From an uncultured Spirochaetales bacterium (lineage in GTDB: Bacteria; Spirochaetota; Spirochaetia; Sphaerochaetales; Sphaerochaetaceae), in NCBI GenBank assembly GCA_949282255.1, contig CASDPA010000008.1:1-64000 (forward strand): DNA of 64,000 nt. The letters are read 5' to 3'. Shown piece after piece: positions 49,141 through 60,086 of this stretch; the first letter of the stretch is position 1, and each line of letters opens with the position of its first letter. The translations under genes and the position numbers were made by a program. Below the pieces are notes generated by a model. The model had not been told where the DNA came from and ran no database searches. It worked only from the letters and a program-made list of their open reading frames with translations.

Positions 49141-50136
49141 ATGAAAAGACTTCTTTTATCTGCATTTGCATTATTGCTGATTCTTGTATCTTGCAATCTC
49201 GATTCAAGCACAGGCATTTTTGAGCAAATATACAACGAAACAGAAAAAAACAATGTCACAGTAAGTTATATGATCGGAAAAGAGAGCGACTCATATTATT
49301 TTTCCACAAAAGAAAACGGCTTAGCAAAAGCATCATCTCCTTTTGAACGCTACAATAAAGTGGAGTTTGTCGATAATCTTGTAGCCAGATTCATCGCGTC
49401 AAACGGTTATGTAATCTGTTCTGACAGAGAAAATGGAAAATATTATGCATTGGCTTTTGTCGGCTCCAGCAAAGAAGAAATTAAGATTACGGCTACAGCA
49501 AATAACATTCCTTCAATTATTGAGGGGGCTTATTTCAATGGCAACCCGGGGACAGGCAAAATGCTGACAGTGATACTTAAATCAACTGATGGAGACTATT
49601 TCTTTTACACCGGCGATCAACCCACGTACAATGCGGAGACGAAATCAGTAGATTTCTCTTCTGCAACACAAATTGAAGGTATTCCCGATTCTTCTGCGCC
49701 TCAGATAATCGGTCCAGGAAAATATACATTCATGACATATATCGAGGACGTCGATCAAACTAAATGGATAATCAATGATATTACATCGGTTGAGTTTTCA
49801 AGCCGGCCGATCCTATGCATCGATGGTCTTGTAATCCTTGAAAACGGCAATACCTACGTTCCTGACAGCTATTCAAATTTCGTAGACGATATAGGGGATT
49901 ATTCGAATTTCACAGGAAACAGAGTTATTGCATCAGGGGTCGATCAAACAGGTAAAATTTATGGAATAACGGATGAATGCTCGTTCAGCTATAATCCTAG
50001 TGCAACTGAAAACGCATTCAAGTACAATCCAGCTACAACAAACTCAATCCATGTCGGCCTTATATTTGACTCAGATAAGATCAAAGTAGCAACAACAGAA
50101 AACGGAATCAAAGAATTCAATACAAGCAGCTTGTAA
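49141..50136 (+). CDS. Lipoprotein of unknown function
   Basis: A 331-residue protein with a lipoprotein signal (MKRLLLSAFALLLILVSCNL, lipobox LVSC). The rest is beta-rich, with SYMIGKESDSYYFSTKENGL and VTFIASNGYVICSDRENGKY-like repeats suggesting a propeller or jelly-roll. I recognise no domain. TAAGGAGG precedes the ATG. A strong terminator follows at 50153-50190, closing a two-gene unit with the barrel protein. The lipoprotein may be lodged in the outer membrane beside that barrel. Confidence 0.7.
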   Translation: MKRLLLSAFALLLILVSCNLDSSTGIFEQIYNETEKNNVTVSYMIGKESDSYYFSTKENGLAKASSPFERYNKVEFVDNLVARFIASNGYVICSDRENGKYYALAFVGSSKEEIKITATANNIPSIIEGAYFNGNPGTGKMLTVILKSTDGDYFFYTGDQPTYNAETKSVDFSSATQIEGIPDSSAPQIIGPGKYTFMTYIEDVDQTKWIINDITSVEFSSRPILCIDGLVILENGNTYVPDSYSNFVDDIGDYSNFTGNRVIASGVDQTGKIYGITDECSFSYNPSATENAFKYNPATTNSIHVGLIFDSDKIKVATTENGIKEFNTSSL

Positions 50137-50297: not shown

Positions 50298-51167
50298 TCA
50301 CTCTTTCACTCCACCCAGCATCAGTCCAGAAACAAAATGCTTCTGGATGAAGGGATAGATAATTAGTACAGGAAGCATGCCCAAGACCATTACTGCCATC
50401 TTGGTGTTGTTATAAACATAATTCCCTCCGCCCAGCGATTCATCTGATTCAAACATCAAAGATCTGAGGACGACCTGGAGCGTATATTTCCTGCTGTCGT
50501 TTATGAACATGATAACCTCAAAATACCGGTTCCAATAACTTACAAAATAAAACAGTATTACTGCTGCAATGATAGAAACTGAAAGTGGAACGACTATACG
50601 TGTAAGAATTATAAAATCATTACAACCATCAAGTCTTGCTGACTCGATAAGTGATTCTGGTATGCTAGTCATATAGTTCTTAATGATTATTACATTAAAA
50701 GTTGATACAGCGACAGGAATGATTATAGCGGACATCGTATTTATCATCCCTAGTGACCTAACAACAATATAAAAAGGCATTATCCCAACATCAAAAACAA
50801 GGGTGAAGGTCAGAATTTTCATGATGAAATTTCTAGCAATAAGATTTTTCCTTGAAAGAGCAAATCCCATGGGAATCGAGATAGCCATCGACAAAGCAGT
50901 GCCTACCACAGCAACAAAAAGAGAATTCTTAAAGGCTTGCATATAACCACTGTGCAGAACCCGATTATAATTTTGCAATGTAAAAGAATGGGGAATCAAA
51001 AGATATTGGTTTCCCATGACATCAATATCCTCAGCAACAGAAGTGATCAAAACATTCCATATTGGGATTATCACCGACAGGCATACAAGCGCAAGGATGA
51101 TCTTATTGATCACATTGAAAACCTTTCTTCCCGTTGTCTCACGAATGGCCTGATGTTTATTTTTCAT
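50298..51167 (-). CDS. Sugar ABC transporter permease, LplC-like
   Basis: A 289-residue inner-membrane permease of the CUT1 carbohydrate group. Six hydrophobic segments are visible. The cytoplasmic coupling loop for the ATPase (EAA motif) reads ESLIESARLDGCNDFIILTR. The end (PFIQKHFVSGLMLGGVKE) is typical of LplC/YtcP-like permeases. It follows its partner permease by 12 bases. No ATPase gene is adjacent, so it must use one encoded elsewhere. Confidence 0.9.
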   Translation of the reverse strand: MKNKHQAIRETTGRKVFNVINKIILALVCLSVIIPIWNVLITSVAEDIDVMGNQYLLIPHSFTLQNYNRVLHSGYMQAFKNSLFVAVVGTALSMAISIPMGFALSRKNLIARNFIMKILTFTLVFDVGIMPFYIVVRSLGMINTMSAIIIPVAVSTFNVIIIKNYMTSIPESLIESARLDGCNDFIILTRIVVPLSVSIIAAVILFYFVSYWNRYFEVIMFINDSRKYTLQVVLRSLMFESDESLGGGNYVYNNTKMAVMVLGMLPVLIIYPFIQKHFVSGLMLGGVKE

Positions 51168-51179
51168 CTCATAATCCTC

Positions 51180-52094
51180 CTAAAGAATAGGCTCTTCCAG
51201 GAATTTTGCGCTTATCTTGTTTGTTGAGAGAACCAAAATCAAACTGATGATAGACGTAAACATCCCTACAGCAATCGAATATCCAATATCCCCGGCCAAA
51301 ACACCTTCCCTATAAACATATGTTTGCAATACATCAGCTACGTCATATACTGCTGCGTTATACATTACAAGAACCTGCTCAAAAATCATTAAAACATGTG
51401 CAAGATTCAACAGGAGCATGGTGACAATTGTGGATCTCATACTTGGAAGTGTGATGTGATAAAGCCTCTGCCAATGCCCCGCACCATCAATGGTTGCAGC
51501 CTCATAAAGCTGGGGATCAATAGTTGTGAGTGCAGCAATATATATAACGGCACCATACCCCATCTGCCTCCATATATAAGATCCAACTATAATCGAACGG
51601 AAATGATCAGGAGATGCCATAAAATATACAGGATCCTTTCCTAATGCTTTTATCAACATGTTCACAGGTCCATATGATGGAGACAGAAGATTAACAAAAA
51701 TACTTCCAACAACAACCCATGAAAAGAAATAAGGTATATAAATCAGGAACTGGATCGCCTTTTTCGCCCTGAAATTTTTCAATTCGTTAATCATCAATGC
51801 AATGATTAAAGGAACAGGAAAATAGAATACGATGTTCGCAAGGCTGATGATAAGTGTGTTTCTGAAAGCATTCCAGAAAATCACCGATGTGAACAGCCTT
51901 TTGAAATTATCAAAGCCTATGAAGGAAACCTTAGCACGAAAACCATAATCGGTGAATGCCAATCCCAAACTGATCATAGGAAGGTATTTAAATATCAAAT
52001 ACCATAATAATCCGGGAACAAGCATTATAATCAGCAATTTTTGCCGTTTTATTACAACACTTAACGGCTTACTATCCTTTCTTTTTTTATCCAT
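51180..52094 (-). CDS. Sugar ABC transporter permease, LplB-like
   Basis: A 304-residue partner permease. It starts with the LplB-typical LLIIMLVPGLLWYLIFKYLP and carries the coupling-loop motif LYEAATIDGAGHWQRLYHIT. The pattern of two unlike permeases with one binding protein is the Lpl/YtcP branch of CUT1 systems, often used for oligosaccharides. The gap to the GH3 gene upstream is only four bases. Confidence 0.9.
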   Translation of the reverse strand: MDKKRKDSKPLSVVIKRQKLLIIMLVPGLLWYLIFKYLPMISLGLAFTDYGFRAKVSFIGFDNFKRLFTSVIFWNAFRNTLIISLANIVFYFPVPLIIALMINELKNFRAKKAIQFLIYIPYFFSWVVVGSIFVNLLSPSYGPVNMLIKALGKDPVYFMASPDHFRSIIVGSYIWRQMGYGAVIYIAALTTIDPQLYEAATIDGAGHWQRLYHITLPSMRSTIVTMLLLNLAHVLMIFEQVLVMYNAAVYDVADVLQTYVYREGVLAGDIGYSIAVGMFTSIISLILVLSTNKISAKFLEEPIL

Positions 52095-52098
52095 CCAC

Positions 52099-54186
52099 TC
52101 ACTCCTTGTTTATCTTAATCATTGCAACATCTGTTTTTGCAAGGCTGCAGCTGAGGGCATCTTTCTGATGTCCGCCGACAAACAATTCCCATTCGCCTTT
52201 ACGTTCATACCTCTCGCCATCATCGTTGACTAGCGAAAAAAGATCCTCGTCAAGCTTAATGGTCACCCATTTGGATTCACCCACTTCAAGATAGGTTCTT
52301 GTAAAACCACAAAGCCTTGGATTTAAGGGAGCATCATGATCACTGCACCCGATGAAGCAAAACGATATTTCCTCGCCATCCATACCGCCTTTATTTGACA
52401 ACATAAAACTCACGCTCTTGTCGAAATAGGAAGCACAGGAATATTCGAAACGTGTATAACTCAATCCAAAAGCAAAAGGATAAAGAGGTGTACCTTCAAA
52501 ATACCTGTATGTACGCCCTTTCATCGAATATGAGTCATAATCAGGTAACACCGTATCACCTTTATAAAAAGTGACAGGAAGCTTACCTGAAGGGTTGTTT
52601 AAGCCAAAAATAGTTTCGCATAACGCCTTACCTCCAAACTCTCCTGGATACCAAGCCTGAAGCAATGCCTTGACTTGTGGATAGGTATCAACAGCTGGAT
52701 CTAACGCCCCGCCGGAAAGAAGGACGAGGATTATAGGTTTTCCTACCTTTGCAACTGAATCCAAAAGTTTTCTTTGAGGTTTGGGCAAAAAAAGATCCTT
52801 CTTGTCGCCTGCAATCCCTCCGTTTCCATCGTCATGCATCTCACCCTCTACCGTCTCATCGAGACCAAGACACAAAACAACAGCATCGGATAATTCTGCA
52901 ACGGTTACAGCTTCGGCGATACGGTCATCTTCCAAAGCAAGACGCTCAACCTTATCCTTAATCAGGGCACACCCTTGGGAATAATAAACATATTCATCAC
53001 CCAATATGCTTCTGAACCCTTCAAGGATCGTGCAATACCGGGCGGATGTACCATGATAATTTCCATGCAAAGCGGCAATCGAATCCGCATTCGGTCCTAT
53101 TATTCCGATTTTAGGCCGCTTCTCTAATGAAAGAGGAAGAAGCCCGTCATTCTTCAACAAGACGATCGACTTTCTTGACGCAGATAAAGAGGCGTTTTCA
53201 TGCTCTTTGGAAAAGATTGCAGAAAAATCAATATCGTCATATTCATTTTTACCATCAAAGAGTCCAAGCTCGAAGCGCGTTGTAAATACGCGTTCGCATG
53301 CCTTTTTTACGGTTTGTTTGCTTATAAGCCCCTTTTGCACCGCCTTTTCAAGAAAATTATACGTGCATCCGCAATTTAAATCACATCCACAATTGATGGC
53401 AAGAGCGGCAGACTCCTCAGGTGTTTTTGTAATTTTATGCTGTTCATGAAAATCACGTATAGCCCAGCAGTCCGAGATGAACATGCCCTTGAACCCCCAT
53501 TTTCCCCTTATAAGGCTCTCGATCAGGCTTGTACCGCAGCATGGCTGTCCGTTAAGCATGCTGTAGGCTCCCATAACTGCATTGACATCTGCCTTTTCAA
53601 TTGCGGCTTTAAATGCAGGAAAATAGGTTTCTTCCAAATCCTTGCATGACACTTCGGCGTTGAAATGGTGTCTTTCCGGCTCCGGACCACTATGGGCTGC
53701 AAAATGCTTCACGCAGGCTGCGGTCTTCAATACGCCGCCTTCCCCTTGAAGCCCTTTTATATATGCCGTGGCCAACACGGAGGAAAGATACGGATCCTCA
53801 CCATAAGTTTCCTGCCCCCTTCCCCATCTCGGGTCACGGAAAATATTGACATTGGGCGACCACACAGTCAGCCCCTTGTAGATTCCTCTGTCGCCTTTTG
53901 AAGAATGGGCATTGTATTTTGCACGCTGCTCACTAGCGACGACAGAGCCTATGTATTTCAAAAAAGAAGGGTCGAACATGGCGGCAAGACCAATCGCTTG
54001 TGGAAAGACCGTTGCAGTACCGGATCTTGCGGCACCGTGCAACGCCTCATTCCACCAGTTATATGCCGGTATGTTCAACCTGCTTATGGCAGGGCTGTCA
54101 TATAAAAGCTGGGAACACATTTCCTTAAGGCTCATCTTCGCAACAAGCTCTTTGGCCTTTTTTACACAATCATCATGATCAGCCAT
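52099..54186 (-). CDS. Glycoside hydrolase family 3 enzyme (beta-xylosidase or beta-glucosidase type)
   Basis: A 695-residue GH3 hydrolase. The N-terminal barrel has YNWWNEALHGAARSGTATVF, VWSPNVNIFRDPRWGRGQET, YGEDPYL and KHFAAHSGPEPERHHF. The nucleophile Asp lies in MFISDCWAIRDFHEQH. The alpha/beta sandwich (ISLIV-like RKSIVLLKNDGLLPL, IGIIGPNADS) and a C-terminal fibronectin-III-like domain follow. The WWNEALHG and GRGQETYGEDP motifs are those of the xylosidase/arabinosidase branch. There is no signal peptide, so it probably cleaves imported oligosaccharides in the cytoplasm. It lies between the binding-protein and permease genes. Confidence 0.93.
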   Translation of the reverse strand: MADHDDCVKKAKELVAKMSLKEMCSQLLYDSPAISRLNIPAYNWWNEALHGAARSGTATVFPQAIGLAAMFDPSFLKYIGSVVASEQRAKYNAHSSKGDRGIYKGLTVWSPNVNIFRDPRWGRGQETYGEDPYLSSVLATAYIKGLQGEGGVLKTAACVKHFAAHSGPEPERHHFNAEVSCKDLEETYFPAFKAAIEKADVNAVMGAYSMLNGQPCCGTSLIESLIRGKWGFKGMFISDCWAIRDFHEQHKITKTPEESAALAINCGCDLNCGCTYNFLEKAVQKGLISKQTVKKACERVFTTRFELGLFDGKNEYDDIDFSAIFSKEHENASLSASRKSIVLLKNDGLLPLSLEKRPKIGIIGPNADSIAALHGNYHGTSARYCTILEGFRSILGDEYVYYSQGCALIKDKVERLALEDDRIAEAVTVAELSDAVVLCLGLDETVEGEMHDDGNGGIAGDKKDLFLPKPQRKLLDSVAKVGKPIILVLLSGGALDPAVDTYPQVKALLQAWYPGEFGGKALCETIFGLNNPSGKLPVTFYKGDTVLPDYDSYSMKGRTYRYFEGTPLYPFAFGLSYTRFEYSCASYFDKSVSFMLSNKGGMDGEEISFCFIGCSDHDAPLNPRLCGFTRTYLEVGESKWVTIKLDEDLFSLVNDDGERYERKGEWELFVGGHQKDALSCSLAKTDVAMIKINKE

Positions 54187-54200
54187 GCCAAAACCTCAAA

Positions 54201-55679
54201 CTATTTCAAAGAAGCATTTAGTTCCTCAAGAATCTTTGGTCCATTTATGCTGTTCCAGAAATTCTTGTACTCCGCCATACCTTCTTCTATCGACACCGAA
54301 CCGAGAACTATCTTTGCAGCAATCGACTCCCTTGTAGATTTGATCGAAGGAGAAACCCTGTCATATGCATCGGAAACCCCGACAGGAACATCTGCCGAAT
54401 GGTTTGGACCAAGGTGGTCTGCAACTGCATTGATGTGCTGCCTCTGTACCTTGATTCCGTTGATCATATCGACATCAAGAGCAAAAGGAAGATTATTAAC
54501 ATCGATATTCAAGAAAGAGTCGGAAAGATAGTTGAGGGTATAGTTGTAACCGCTGTTGGCCGCTTTTGCAGTCGGAACAATCGATTTGTTCTCATCAAGT
54601 GTGTAATGATATCCCTCAAGTCCGATTCCATAGAATGCAGGATAAAGCTCGGGATCGGTTACAATTGTTTCTATGACCTTGAATGCCTCGTCAGGATATT
54701 TTGTCTTCGCCGAGACAACCCATGCAGTCTGAGTAGCTTCGTTCAAAGCGCCCCCTTCTCCATTCGGTCCGATCAATTCATAGATTACAAACATCTCTGT
54801 CGGCACACCTGCAGTAGCTGTATTCTGAATGTAGTTGATATAGTTTGTGACATAATCGATGTCGGCAGCGGATTTGCCGGTGTATACAGCTTCCCTCATC
54901 TGAGAGTTTTCAGTTGTTATGAATTCCGAGTTAAGGATTCCTTCCTCATAAAGCCTGTGTATATATTCAAGAGCCTCGTACATCTCTGGTTCCTGGAAGC
55001 CATCAATAAACTTCCCATCCTTGAGATAAACACCACCCCATGCGCCGAAGGAATTATAGAAGAACTGGAAGTTGTCGATCCATTTTGGGAATGTGAAAGG
55101 TACGATGTCTGTTCCTTCAAGCTTTTTCATTTCTGTGATGAACTCTTCCGTTGTAGGAGCAGAAGATAAGTTAATGCCATATTTTTCCATCACGTCCTTG
55201 CGGAGCATTATTCCCTTTGATTTCGGATTGTTGTAAGGGACGAAATAAAGATTTCCATCGATATAAGGGGTTTCCAAAATCGATTTGTTGATTACAGACA
55301 GTTTTTCCGAATTCTCAATATAGTCTGTCAAATCAAGCAACTGTCCACGGGAAACCATCTGTGGGAGCTTCACCATAGCCTGGGCAATAGTGAAAACATC
55401 TGGAACATCACCGCTATTGACCAATGTTGCAAGTTTATCGGAATAGCTGGCTAAAGGAGGAATGATCGGAGAAATATTCACACCTGTTTTCTCTTTGATC
55501 ATGTCTGTAATAGCCTGCTGCAAGTCAGGATCCGTGCTTAGGCCGTAGGTATTATCGGCCGTTGCCAGTTCCAGAGTTACCTCTCCGCTGTTTTCCTTCG
55601 AGCCGTTTGCAAACAACATAAACGAGCAAAGCAAAACAATAAGGATAACCCAAAAGCATTTCTTCAAGTTCTGCATCAT
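54201..55679 (-). CDS. Extracellular solute-binding protein for the sugar transporter
   Basis: A 492-residue periplasmic binding protein of the LplA/family-1 type. The signal peptide (CFWVILIVLLCSFMLF) is followed by ANGSKENSGEVTLELATADN, the kind of 'GSKE' start common in spirochaete binding proteins. No proper lipobox cysteine is seen (VLLC is a poor fit). The mature protein has DVFTIAQAMVKLPQMVSRGQ, LLDLTDYIENSEKLS and other family motifs. It is the first gene of the minus arm; GGAG precedes the ATG pair (55679 or 55676). Confidence 0.9.
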   Translation of the reverse strand: MMQNLKKCFWVILIVLLCSFMLFANGSKENSGEVTLELATADNTYGLSTDPDLQQAITDMIKEKTGVNISPIIPPLASYSDKLATLVNSGDVPDVFTIAQAMVKLPQMVSRGQLLDLTDYIENSEKLSVINKSILETPYIDGNLYFVPYNNPKSKGIMLRKDVMEKYGINLSSAPTTEEFITEMKKLEGTDIVPFTFPKWIDNFQFFYNSFGAWGGVYLKDGKFIDGFQEPEMYEALEYIHRLYEEGILNSEFITTENSQMREAVYTGKSAADIDYVTNYINYIQNTATAGVPTEMFVIYELIGPNGEGGALNEATQTAWVVSAKTKYPDEAFKVIETIVTDPELYPAFYGIGLEGYHYTLDENKSIVPTAKAANSGYNYTLNYLSDSFLNIDVNNLPFALDVDMINGIKVQRQHINAVADHLGPNHSADVPVGVSDAYDRVSPSIKSTRESIAAKIVLGSVSIEEGMAEYKNFWNSINGPKILEELNASLK

Positions 55680-55851: not shown

Positions 55852-56685
55852 ATGAAAACAGACTACAAACTTACATTTTCAGGTAGATTCCATTATAAAA
55901 AAGGTGGTGGATTGTCCCCGCATGGACATCCGGAGGATTTTCAGGTACAGCTGATATATCAAGGCAAAGCAATTGTTGGTGTTAATAATGTCAAGTTTAC
56001 TGCCAATGCCGGGGACATTGTATTCATACCTCAGGGCTCGGAGCACTATTTCACAGTAATTTCTGAAGATGGGATGAAAACCTTGGAAATCAAATTCACC
56101 TGCTCAGATTCTGAACTTTTATATCTCATCGGCACCCTAAAAACACTGTTCAGAGATAAGAACAACCTGGTCTTTAACCGGTTCTCAGCAATTGTCATGG
56201 AAGGATATAAGAAATTATCTTCTTATAAAATAAAGAATAATGCCATGCTTGTTGAAACTCTCGTCGATCTTTCACGACTATGCATGGAAGCTCAAGAATC
56301 AGAAGTACAAAGCACTGAACCGCAATCGTCTGCTGTTGCAACTGATTCCGCCGTTTTAGATGCAATTACCGAGTACATATACAGCAACCTAAACAAGAAT
56401 TTTCAGATCGGAGATTTGGCCGCCGCCTGCGGGTATAAGCAGGACTACATTTATAGGACTGTACACAAAAAGATGCAAATGTCGGTAATACAATATATAA
56501 ATAAGATCAGATTTGAACAGGCAAAGAAGCTGATCCAGCATTCAGAATTATCGATGACGGAAATTGCATGGAACCTTGGCTTTGAAAGTCTGCAGTACTT
56601 TTCAAAGTTTTTTAAGCAGCATGCTCTTATGTCCCCATCGGAATACAGCAAGAGAACAAGAAACCTCATCAGAACAGATTATTAG
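55852..56685 (+). CDS. AraC-family transcriptional regulator with an N-terminal cupin
   Basis: A 277-residue regulator. The N-terminal cupin (about 1-100) has GLSPHGHPEDFQVQLIYQG and GDIVFIPQGSEHYF and would sense a sugar or related ligand. The C-terminal AraC DNA-binding pair of helix-turn-helices covers about 175-270 (DLAAACGYKQDYIYRTVHKK and MTEIAWNLGFESLQYFSKFF). It probably controls both arms of the sugar locus through the repeats at 55776-55818 and 56694-56759. The promoter and ribosome binding site are weak (TTGGAG, about 15 bases before the ATG). Confidence 0.9.
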   Translation: MKTDYKLTFSGRFHYKKGGGLSPHGHPEDFQVQLIYQGKAIVGVNNVKFTANAGDIVFIPQGSEHYFTVISEDGMKTLEIKFTCSDSELLYLIGTLKTLFRDKNNLVFNRFSAIVMEGYKKLSSYKIKNNAMLVETLVDLSRLCMEAQESEVQSTEPQSSAVATDSAVLDAITEYIYSNLNKNFQIGDLAAACGYKQDYIYRTVHKKMQMSVIQYINKIRFEQAKKLIQHSELSMTEIAWNLGFESLQYFSKFFKQHALMSPSEYSKRTRNLIRTDY

Positions 56686-56776: not shown

Positions 56777-58063
56777 ATGAGTATCAAACGGTACGCCCAG
56801 GTCGGCACAGGCGGACGGGCAAGGATGTATTATGAAGCCATTGTATCCACATATAAGGACAGTGCGGTGCTTACGGCATTCTGCGATCAATCCAAAACAA
56901 GAATGGATTATGCCAATTCCGTAATCGAGAGCAAAGGAAGTGCCCGGGTTCCGGAATATTTGCCAGACGAGTTTGATAAGATGATCGATGAGACAAAGCC
57001 CGATACGATCATTGTTACATCAATAGATAGGACCCATGACCAGTATATCGTAAGGGCACTGGAAAAAGGATGCGATGTCATAACCGAAAAGCCTATAACA
57101 ATTGATGAGAAAAAAGCACAAAGAATAATTGATGCTCAAAAAAGGACCGGTAAGAAAATAAGGGTTGCATTCAATTACAGGTATGCACCCCATCATACAA
57201 AGATGAAGGAGCTGATATCGGAAGGTGTTATAGGAAAGCCGTTTTCCGTTCATTTTGAATGGAATTTGAACACAGTCCATGGTGCTGACTATTATCGCCG
57301 TTGGCACCGCAATAAGATAAACAGCGGCGGTCTTCTTGTACATAAGTCCACACATCACTTTGATCTTGTGGATTTCTGGCTGGATACAGAACCGGAGACG
57401 GTCTTTGCCTTCGGAAGCCTCAATTTCTACGGGCGTGCTGCTGCTGAAGAGAGAGGGGTCAAGGATTTCTATTACCGCAGCTATGGCTCTGATATTGCTA
57501 AAAACGATCCGTTTTCGATAGATATTGCAAATAATCCCACCATGAAAGCACTTTATCTCGATGCGGAAAAAGACAGCGGCTACATCCGAGACAGAAGCGT
57601 ATTTTCTGATGACATATCTATCGAAGATACGATGAATGTTCTTGTAAAATATAAAAACGGTGCACAGATGTCCTACTCTTTAAACACATATCTTCCATGG
57701 GAAGGTTTCAATGTTGCAATCAATGGCTCAAAAGGAAGAATAGAGTTTACCGCACTCGAGAAGCCGTACATTAATGCAGGAGGAGACAAAAATGATGAGG
57801 GCGCAGCAGTTTTCCACAAAATCCGGGTATGTCCCCTTTTTGCACCTGCTTACGAAGTGGAAATCGAAAAGAAGGAAGGAGGCCATGGAGGTGGAGATCC
57901 AGCGCTGCTTGATGATATCTTTCTGGAAAATCCACCATACGACAGATTTCATCGCGCAGCAGATTATGTTGATGGCATAAAATCTGCATTGACTGGAATT
58001 GCTGCCAACAAATCCATAGCATCCAATCTTCCTGTGGACGTATCATCACTTGTCAGATGGTAA
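56777..58063 (+). CDS. Gfo/Idh/MocA-family oxidoreductase
   Basis: A 428-residue NAD(P)-dependent sugar dehydrogenase or epimerase-type enzyme. The N-terminal Rossmann fold has YAQVGTGGRARMYYEAI and FCDQSKTRMDYAN; the active-site motif EKP is in DVITEKPITIDEKKA. The C-terminal sheet domain carries GGLLVHKSTHHFDLVDFWLD. Family members oxidise hydroxyl groups of sugars, inositols or uronic acids. The substrate here is unknown, but gene context points to the imported glycoside. AAGGAG precedes the ATG. Confidence 0.9.
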   Translation: MSIKRYAQVGTGGRARMYYEAIVSTYKDSAVLTAFCDQSKTRMDYANSVIESKGSARVPEYLPDEFDKMIDETKPDTIIVTSIDRTHDQYIVRALEKGCDVITEKPITIDEKKAQRIIDAQKRTGKKIRVAFNYRYAPHHTKMKELISEGVIGKPFSVHFEWNLNTVHGADYYRRWHRNKINSGGLLVHKSTHHFDLVDFWLDTEPETVFAFGSLNFYGRAAAEERGVKDFYYRSYGSDIAKNDPFSIDIANNPTMKALYLDAEKDSGYIRDRSVFSDDISIEDTMNVLVKYKNGAQMSYSLNTYLPWEGFNVAINGSKGRIEFTALEKPYINAGGDKNDEGAAVFHKIRVCPLFAPAYEVEIEKKEGGHGGGDPALLDDIFLENPPYDRFHRAADYVDGIKSALTGIAANKSIASNLPVDVSSLVRW

Positions 58064-58076
58064 AAGGAAAATATCT

Positions 58077-60086
58077 ATGCATCTTTTATTAAATGAAGAC
58101 TTTAAGGATTTTTCCCTGGGCCCATTCCCTTATGACCATGAACACTCTGCCATGGGGGAATACCATTTCTATCCAGAAAAAGGATATAAAGGAGTCTGGT
58201 TCGATCCTATCTCAAACTGGAATTACAAAGGTCCAAGTTGGCTTATTACCTCCCCTAACCTTGATGGAACCCACTTTATGGAGCAGATGCGCTTAGCTGA
58301 TTCCCAAAAAAAAGGTGATGTGCCTTGCTTGAGAGCTGGAGATGTGGACTGGACAGATTATAAGGCGGTATTTGTATTTCGACCGCTGGTCAAAGGCGAA
58401 ATCTCAGGTATGCTTTTCAGATATCAGACATCCATGATGCATTATGGCTTCTACCTTTCAAAAGACGGTGCTGAAATCATAAAGACTGAAATGCTTGAGA
58501 AAACTGTTTTGGCAAAAACTCCACTTGATTGGGATCCTGATTTTTTCTATGAAGTTGAAATCGATGTTTCAAAAGATAATTTCACCTGCTTTTTGAACGG
58601 TAGAAAAATTTTATCAGCAACAGATAACAGCTTTAAAAACGGCTGCATAGCGCTTTCTGCCTGTGTTCCAACACAGTATAAATCCGTCATTGTATCCATG
58701 AACAAAATCCAATGGGATGGATATATGAAAGAGAAAGCTGAAAAAGATAAAAAGATTGAAGGAAAAAGAAATAGTCTTCCAAAAGCAAAGCTGGTAAAAA
58801 AGATAGACCTAAAAAACTTTGGGGCAGGCAGACAAATCAGGTTCGGACATCTGTTGGGGACAAAGGAGCTTTTCTTTGTGATCGCACAACATCAGAGAAG
58901 AACTTATAAAGACCGCTATCCCTTTATCAGTTGTCTTACAGCAGTTTCTCTTGAAACAGGAGATGTACTGTGGCAGATCGGAGAACCGAATGACGATGAG
59001 GATGTGGTAGAACTTACCACAGACCTCCCTTTCCAGATATATGATATAAACGGTGATGGAATCGATGAAGTTATTGCATCCTGGGATTTCAAAATCTTCA
59101 TTTTGGATGGCCGTACTGGAAATATCATCAAATCTGCCCCTACCCCTGAAAACACGCAAGATCCTGCCACAGTGACAGGACTTGAGTTTGGACAATATGC
59201 CTTTAAAAGACTGAATGTGGATGCAATACGCATAGTAAATGTTTCTGGGTATGAAAAGCCTAGAGAGATTATGATCAAAGATCGTTACTCAAGGCTTTGG
59301 ATCCTTGATAGTGATTTGAATGTCAAATGGTTTTTTTCAAAATACAATACAGGTCATTTCCCATATTCGTACGATTTTGACGGCGATGGAAAAGATGAGA
59401 TATTCAGTTGCTACAACATGATCGATGATGATGGAAGACTCATGTGGTCCCTACCCGTTCATACAGATCATACCGATGAAATAATTGCAGGAAAAATGGA
59501 TCCGGACAATGATGAATTTCTTGCAATAGTGTCGGGATGGGAAGGAGTAATGTTTATCAAAAAGGATGGAACCATCTTTTTTAAAAAGATAAATGGACAT
59601 GGCCAAAGGATAAGTACAGGAAGCTACTGTAAAAACATTCCTGGATTGCAAATATGCACCACAACCTATTGGGGCAATAATGGCATAATATACATGTACG
59701 ATTGCAAAGGCAACGAACTGTGGCATAAGGAGGCATTATGCAACGGTAACATAATAGCTCCTGTGAACTGGAATGGTTCAGGACAAGATCTGATCCTACT
59801 AAACGGAGATGCGGAAAAAGGTGGGCTAATCGACGGAGACGGAGACGTGGTTGTTACATTCCCAAATGACGGACACCCTTGCCTTTCTGCTGAAGTCTTG
59901 GATATCGATTCAGACCATCTTGACGAGATAATCCTATGGGACAGGAAAAGCCTTTGGATATATTCACAAGAAGAAAAGAAAAACTGTAAAATGAAAAGGA
60001 TTTATGCTCCCAGAAAGTATGAAATGTTCAATGCTTCAAATTACCGAGGAGAATACTCCTTCCCGAATTGGATAGAAAACAGTTAA
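58077..60086 (+). CDS. Lectin-like domain plus FG-GAP/PL11-like propeller protein, cytoplasmic
   Basis: A 669-residue protein. Residues 1-220 look like a laminin-G/jelly-roll domain (LLLNEDFKDFSLGPFPYD to CIALSACVPTQYKS). The rest is a propeller with calcium-type loops YDINGDGIDEVIAS and YDFDGDGKDEIFSC and further repeats LNGDAEKGG and IDGDGDV, as in FG-GAP repeats and rhamnogalacturonan lyases of family PL11. No catalytic assignment is possible from the sequence alone. There is no signal peptide, so it acts in the cytoplasm or is exported by another route. ATG 58077 follows AAAGGA. It lies 13 bases after the oxidoreductase stop and ends the plus arm. Confidence 0.72.
   Translation: MHLLLNEDFKDFSLGPFPYDHEHSAMGEYHFYPEKGYKGVWFDPISNWNYKGPSWLITSPNLDGTHFMEQMRLADSQKKGDVPCLRAGDVDWTDYKAVFVFRPLVKGEISGMLFRYQTSMMHYGFYLSKDGAEIIKTEMLEKTVLAKTPLDWDPDFFYEVEIDVSKDNFTCFLNGRKILSATDNSFKNGCIALSACVPTQYKSVIVSMNKIQWDGYMKEKAEKDKKIEGKRNSLPKAKLVKKIDLKNFGAGRQIRFGHLLGTKELFFVIAQHQRRTYKDRYPFISCLTAVSLETGDVLWQIGEPNDDEDVVELTTDLPFQIYDINGDGIDEVIASWDFKIFILDGRTGNIIKSAPTPENTQDPATVTGLEFGQYAFKRLNVDAIRIVNVSGYEKPREIMIKDRYSRLWILDSDLNVKWFFSKYNTGHFPYSYDFDGDGKDEIFSCYNMIDDDGRLMWSLPVHTDHTDEIIAGKMDPDNDEFLAIVSGWEGVMFIKKDGTIFFKKINGHGQRISTGSYCKNIPGLQICTTTYWGNNGIIYMYDCKGNELWHKEALCNGNIIAPVNWNGSGQDLILLNGDAEKGGLIDGDGDVVVTFPNDGHPCLSAEVLDIDSDHLDEIILWDRKSLWIYSQEEKKNCKMKRIYAPRKYEMFNASNYRGEYSFPNWIENS

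Follow-up and report, generated by a model that had tools for sequence, protein, structure and literature searches.

A PL11-related propeller protein with a CBM66-like jelly roll, probably cytoplasmic, at a spirochaete sugar locus

The locus and its reading frame

The window (viz. the entire stretch of 64,000 nucleotides that was analysed) contains a gene for a protein of 669 amino acids, which begins with an ATG, is free of internal stops and is preceded on the same strand by the genes for a Gfo/Idh/MocA oxidoreductase and an AraC-type regulator (Table 1). The genes for an ABC solute-binding protein, a GH3 enzyme and two ABC permeases (50298-55679) are located on the opposite strand and are divergent from these three. 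The first-pass annotation had placed the protein in a sugar operon with the GH3 enzyme and an oxidoreductase; this is correct for the oxidoreductase, but not for the GH3 enzyme, nor does the same-strand arrangement extend to the binding protein and the permeases. The NCBIfam model nearest to the GH3 enzyme is that of the xylan 1,4-beta-xylosidase Xyl3A, at 695 bits and under the cut-off of 1250. Beside the end of the permease genes (49141-50136) a putative lipoprotein of 331 amino acids was recognised by eye, and it is kept in the closest relative (L031).

Table 1. Positions in the window of the genes at the locus and of the features within the 669-residue protein
Feature	Position	Strand	Basis
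ABC permease 2	50298..51167	-	Pfam
ABC permease 1	51180..52094	-	Pfam
GH3 enzyme	52099..54186	-	Pfam, NCBIfam; no hydrophobic N-terminus
ABC solute-binding (sugar-binding) protein	54201..55679	-	Pfam; strong N-terminal hydrophobic stretch
AraC-type regulator	55852..56685	+	Pfam
Gfo/Idh/MocA oxidoreductase, 13 nt upstream, conserved partner	56777..58063	+	Pfam
669-residue protein: N-terminal jelly roll, helix, PL11-type beta-propeller	58077..60086	+	ORF, model, profiles
N-terminal jelly roll, CBM66-like (residues 1-209)	58077..58703	+	model, Foldseek, VIA, profile
Loop PYDHEHSAMGEYHFYPEKG (residues 18-36), pLDDT <50	58128..58184	+	conservation; low confidence in two models
Linker helix (residues 210-233)	58704..58775	+	structure models
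Beta-propeller, about 33 strands (8 blades by count), PL11-homologous	58776..60005	+	models, Foldseek, hhalign, Pfam
Calcium blade loop DINGDGIDE (residues 323-331)	59043..59069	+	aligns with DLDGDGRSE of PL11 L158
His427, PL11 calcium-site His	59355..59357	+	H in 18/18 rows
Calcium blade loop DFDGDGKDE (residues 433-441)	59373..59399	+	aligns with DVDGDGKDE of PL11 L158
His465-Thr-Asp467, PL11 calcium-site HxD (GHGD)	59469..59477	+	H, D in 18/18 rows
Glu489, PL11 calcium-site Glu	59541..59543	+	E in 16/18 rows
Arg511 (GHGQR), at the PL11 carboxylate-binding Arg	59607..59609	+	MAFFT rows

A chance reading frame is rejected by the clear homologues in 41 of 139 genomes of the order, by the 72 named loci that were found and by the conservation of the family. 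The frame measures 688 amino acids from stop to stop, and the at most 19 codons 5' of the ATG fall mostly within the 3' end of the preceding gene and include no hydrophobic stretch. As the frame is of this length only and the short extension is hydrophilic, there is no room in it for a signal peptide, which agrees with the first-pass annotation. A missed signal peptide is likewise rejected by a hydropathy scan of 73 loci (the 72 named ones and that of the window), which ran in segments of 11 residues from the stop codon before each frame as far as 40 residues into its match. A mean of at least 2.0 was reached in only three of these loci (L101, L098 and L074), and in at least L098 and L101 the hydrophobic stretches are read as lying upstream of the likely start. 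By the same measure, the neighbouring solute-binding protein reaches 3.2, and the GH3 enzyme and the Gfo oxidoreductase 0.7 each. Judged from its sequence, the 669-residue protein is thus probably cytoplasmic, as had been proposed earlier. The two FG-GAP loops of the calcium type, which had been noted as usual for secreted proteins, are both present, and the remark agrees with PMC3123361, according to which the motif is biased towards extracellular locations, although some calcium blades are intracellular exceptions.

Domain structure and PL11-type residues

The earlier description of a lectin-type domain joined to a propeller is borne out by structure models (pLDDT 84.3 and pTM 0.86 for the full-length protein; pLDDT 88.2 for the N-terminal domain modelled alone) and by structure comparison. 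For the jelly roll, the best PDB match by Foldseek is the CBM66 of the B. subtilis levanase (4b1m, E 1.4e-7), a module of the terminal-fructose-binding kind. By VIA this match has a Z of 21.1 (rmsd 1.8, 152 aligned residues), with galactocerebrosidase next at 20.6, and a sequence profile of the jelly roll matches the levanase CBM66 in the PDB at E 1.6e-8. Based on these three comparisons, the protein is predicted to contain a CBM66 jelly-roll fold. However, although the fold is common to it and the levanase module (4b1m, 4azz), the identity is 15-16%, and the window's domain belongs to a protein that lacks a signal peptide and carries an extra conserved loop. This loop (residues 18-36; PYDxEHSAMGEYH) and residues 652-659 (NxSNYRGE) rank with the most strongly conserved stretches of 38 family members, and the pLDDT of the loop is under 50 both in the full-length model and in that of the N-terminal domain; we suppose that it may be an active-site lid.

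For the propeller, the top four Foldseek matches in the PDB are all PL11 proteins, ranging from E 1.3e-14 (4cag) to 4.1e-13 (YesX) and including YesW. An hhalign comparison of 38 family members with six PL11 proteins gives a probability of 99.3 and E 4.3e-20 over 369 columns, and the Pfam PL11 model (RGL11_C, PF21348) is matched by 38 of 38 scanned members at E<=0.1, the window's protein having a modest 32.9 bits against a cut-off of 27. In the VIA comparison of the full model, YesX (Z 23.9) is aligned over 396 residues, more than any other match listed, but BamB (Z 24.1) is tied with it and other unrelated propellers are similar; because BamB-type propellers reach the same Z, the VIA fold match alone does not single out PL11. 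Based on Pfam, hhalign and Foldseek together, a homologous PL11 propeller is present in the 669-residue protein.

Structure prediction and a comparison with PL11 active sites had been proposed as a check of the earlier reading, and the outcome is divided, as the calcium-site residues and the Arg are kept but the substrate Lys is not. The reference for this comparison is the PL11 enzyme Bo3128, for which PMC8787155 gives His376, His412, Asp414 and Glu435 as calcium ligands and Arg467, Lys549 and Tyr610 as substrate residues. Motifs and their spacing served to locate these residues in the PL11 frame of L136, and the assignment was then tested in two alignments, viz. MAFFT L-INS-i (12 family rows and 6 PL11 rows) and hhalign. 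Both His and the Asp fall in the same columns in the two alignments. The column of Glu489 has Asp in L112 and Gln in L118, and hhalign is three columns off here; with Glu489 taken as the Glu, the PL11 calcium-site residues His, His, Asp and Glu are all present in the window's protein. The column of Bo3128 Arg467 has Arg in 12 of 12 family rows and in 3 of 6 PL11 rows (hhalign being one column off). However, Lys549 is not kept in either MAFFT or hhalign, its place being taken by Asp598 or a neighbour (Asp598-Gly-His600-Pro), and in the region of the stacking Tyr610, where the C-terminal alignment is loose, the window's protein has Phe651 and the others mostly Tyr. Two of the PL11 calcium-blade loops are kept, and at the position of the third (DLDGDG) the family has GHLxGT (hhalign); in PMC3123361, YesW is described as having three such loops and a further calcium site required for activity. 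Throughout 38 diverse members, the metal-site His/His/Asp, GHxQR and the terminal SNYRGE motif are very strongly conserved. Three divergent PL11-like propellers (L160, L161 and L163) have the His/His/Asp/Glu set but a His (THxH) at the position of the classical PL11 Arg, and therefore this Arg is not universal in the superfamily. In L136 (11-2272) the PL11-type frame appears by eye to run on into an SGNH-type esterase-like part, and a small separate jelly-roll-like gene lies directly behind it.

The protein thus has in common with the PL11 lyases (YesW 2z8r, YesX 2zuy and 4cag) a propeller homologous over the 369 columns, the calcium-site residues, the Arg and two calcium-blade loops. It differs from them in the lack of a signal peptide, in the missing Lys and in the CBM66-like domain that replaces the PL11 N-terminal part, and its identity to the solved PL11 enzymes is 13-14%. 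The Pfam scan of the 669-residue protein found no PL11-type N-terminal model, the jelly roll holding this position. Since it lacks both the Lys and the canonical N-terminal domain, the protein is not filed straight under PL11, and we refer to it as PL11-related. RG-I lyases of the PL11 kind are reportedly, from work on B. subtilis, secreted and act before uptake. Of the two findings named in the first-pass annotation as contrary to its reading, there is no missed signal peptide, whereas the protein does have clear homologues in a family that is known for secreted enzymes.

Distribution and gene neighbourhood

A match occurs in 43 of the order's 139 genomes; in 41 of these, inclusive of that of the window, it is a clear copy, 51-93% identical to the window's protein. 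The 72 loci from the scan of named genomes belong to Spirochaetota, Clostridia and a few other Bacillota, with identities of 42-93% except for one partial match at 32%. One of the carriers, Breznakiella homolactica (L082), can be cultured. The family is patchy, since in the phylum, represented by 296 genomes, a match that extends past the N-terminal domain or past a short stretch of PL11 type is seen in G000, the distant G191 and the divergent G017 only. When 66 of the 73 sequences are placed in a tree, the phylum label has to change twice, and the position of the spirochaete loci L099, L101 and L108 inside the Bacillota part of the tree suggests transfer between phyla. NCBIfam contains no family matching the window's protein at E<=0.01 (there is one stray match in 38 members), so that the family is without a name there, and its Pfam match is generic only. 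A search of open-access literature found nothing relevant for an intracellular or cytoplasmic rhamnogalacturonan lyase or PL11. The homologues in L011 (G005, also L072) and L029 (G129, also L086) each contain one in-frame TGA, which may reflect a frameshift, an error of assembly or decay of the gene.

Neighbouring genes were counted by searching Pfam-checked representatives against the 73 loci. A Gfo gene is present in 27 of them, in all cases within 300 nt and in both subfamilies, and GH88/105 in 16, ten of which have it at this distance too. GH28, altronate dehydratase and a DHDPS-type aldolase, the last of which we read as KDG-aldolase-like, occur in 9 loci each, GH3 in 14 and an ABC permease in 37, and GH106 (L112) and GH4 (L118) in single loci. 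Gfo or at least one of the four pectin-type genes is found in 41 of the 73 loci and neither in 32, in some cases because the contigs end. The Gfo partner presumably resembles YteT of the B. subtilis RG-I cluster, on which a search of the literature gave nothing of use. Near the gene in the window, the GH3 and Gfo genes are present but no pectin gene; elsewhere in the same genome there are matches to GH88/105 (three), GH28 (one) and altronate dehydratase (two), with one GH88/105 within 2.4 kb of the GH28. GH88/105 is present in all 41 genomes of the order with a clear copy and in 76 of the 98 others (Fisher p 2.5e-4, uncorrected for kinship); however, as 117 of the 139 genomes have GH88/105, this co-occurrence is weak evidence within close kin.

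Proposed function and its alternatives

With moderate confidence, we interpret the 669-residue protein as a lyase from the PL11 lineage that is cytoplasmic and depends on a metal, and that would act on imported galacturonate-containing oligosaccharides. Its fold and metal site are well supported, and to this extent the earlier suggestion of a polysaccharide-acting enzyme gains from the homology to PL11 and the retained calcium-site residues, whereas we infer the binding of a metal, the lyase chemistry, the substrate, the role of the lectin-type domain and the location in the cytoplasm. The ABC importer would bring short oligosaccharides of plant cell walls, most likely of the pectin/rhamnogalacturonan type, into the cell, where the CBM66-like domain may help to hold the sugar chain. 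The chain would then be cut by beta-elimination at the propeller's metal site (H427/H465/D467/E489), with R511 near the uronate carboxylate, and the resulting unsaturated ends may be removed by GH88/105 enzymes. Action of such a lyase after ABC import is proposed on account of the metal site, the PL11 homology and the recurring uronate genes. PL22 oligogalacturonate lyase, which is a propeller enzyme of the cytoplasm and cleaves pectin oligomers, offers a possible model for how the protein works, although it has seven blades and a different metal site. PL22 is absent among the best 50 structure matches listed (Foldseek, VIA), and PL42 among the structure matches listed, neither of which excludes anything. 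Several observations speak against this interpretation, viz. the loss of the Lys549 equivalent, the Gln or Asp of some members at Glu489, the lack of a pectin gene at the protein's own locus, the 32 loci with neither Gfo nor pectin-type genes, the VIA tie with BamB and the modest Pfam score. With the Lys missing and a Gfo partner recurring, the substrate may have changed, or oxidation may precede elimination. If the lyase interpretation is true, the PL11 metal site has moved to the cytoplasm in a widespread family, in which it is combined with a domain of a sugar-binding type and paired with an oxidoreductase. Spirochaetes of the gut and rumen, as well as Clostridia, would then take up pectin fragments that are longer or decorated and cut them intracellularly, beyond the reach of competitors. 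As the family is unnamed, a single assay would provide annotation across two phyla.

Three other explanations are each considered unlikely. The substrate of a cytoplasmic lyase or hydrolase could be a sugar other than pectin, e.g. rhamnosyl-glucuronate from arabinogalactan, or a chain with xylose that suits the GH3 enzyme, whose nearest models are beta-xylosidases and which recurs in other loci. Propeller lyases acting on Rha-GlcA are indeed known (PL42, PMC8377490). However, the recurrence of GH88/105, GH28, altronate dehydratase and the KDG-aldolase-like gene in other lineages argues against this, and the explanation is an improbable one. It is similarly doubtful that the protein is a non-catalytic cytoplasmic sugar-binding protein (e.g. 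a sensor or scaffold for GH3 or Gfo) descended from a PL11-like lyase. The lost Lys, the CBM-type domain and a Glu489 that is not strictly kept would fit such a descent, but the strong conservation of the metal-site residues, GHxQR and SNYRGE in the 38 members is what is expected of an enzyme.

According to the third explanation, which we hold to be about equally unlikely, the neighbouring Gfo/Idh/MocA enzyme acts first, oxidising a glycoside at C3, and the 669-residue protein eliminates or hydrolyses the resulting 3-keto-glycoside, at either the metal site or the jelly roll; 3-keto-glycoside systems are treated in PMC10628242 and PMC9007349. The proximity of Gfo in 27 loci would agree with this, and the absence of the uronate-binding Lys would be compatible with another substrate. 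The jelly roll has a weak likeness to 3-keto-disaccharide hydrolase (16 of 38 members at E<=0.1, best 2.5e-6) and aligns with the 3-keto-glycoside eliminase/hydratase 9fbe (Z 15.8), and the Gfo partner matches DgpA1 at E 3.5e-12. However, other Gfo-type enzymes match this partner as well as or better than DgpA1 does, and 46 of the 73 loci are without such a Gfo in the stretch covered, 10 having GH88/105 within 300 nt instead. Moreover, CBM66 fits the jelly roll better than the 3-keto-glycoside enzymes do, both in structure (Z 21.1 vs 15.8) and by profile, where 3imm, which we take to be a DUF1080 protein, has an E of 1.1 vs 1.6e-8. The window's protein has 15 bits against PF06439 (DUF1080, 3-keto-disaccharide hydrolase), below the gathering score of 26.8. 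Due to this and the better fit of CBM66, the jelly roll as a 3-keto-disaccharide hydrolase is not favoured and is kept as a rival only. In a more specific form, which is less probable again, Gfo and the PL11-derived propeller would constitute a two-part cytoplasmic machine, the former oxidising the sugar and the old PL11 metal site, devoid of its Lys, eliminating the glycosidic bond of the keto-sugar. If true, this would be a further structural solution to the cleavage of 3-keto-glycosides, beside the TIM-barrel and DUF1080-type enzymes.

Apart from the 669-residue protein and its homologues, spirochaetes have a second, shorter group of RGL11-like propellers (L138 1057-2457, L139 1000-2457 and L147 1045-2406). 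These match PF21348 and have, by eye, no evident signal peptide, but in contrast to the window's protein they are of about 453-485 amino acids and without a jelly roll. Two of them are located, as seen by eye, behind a PHP-domain-like gene and one between the genes for a histidine kinase and a response regulator.
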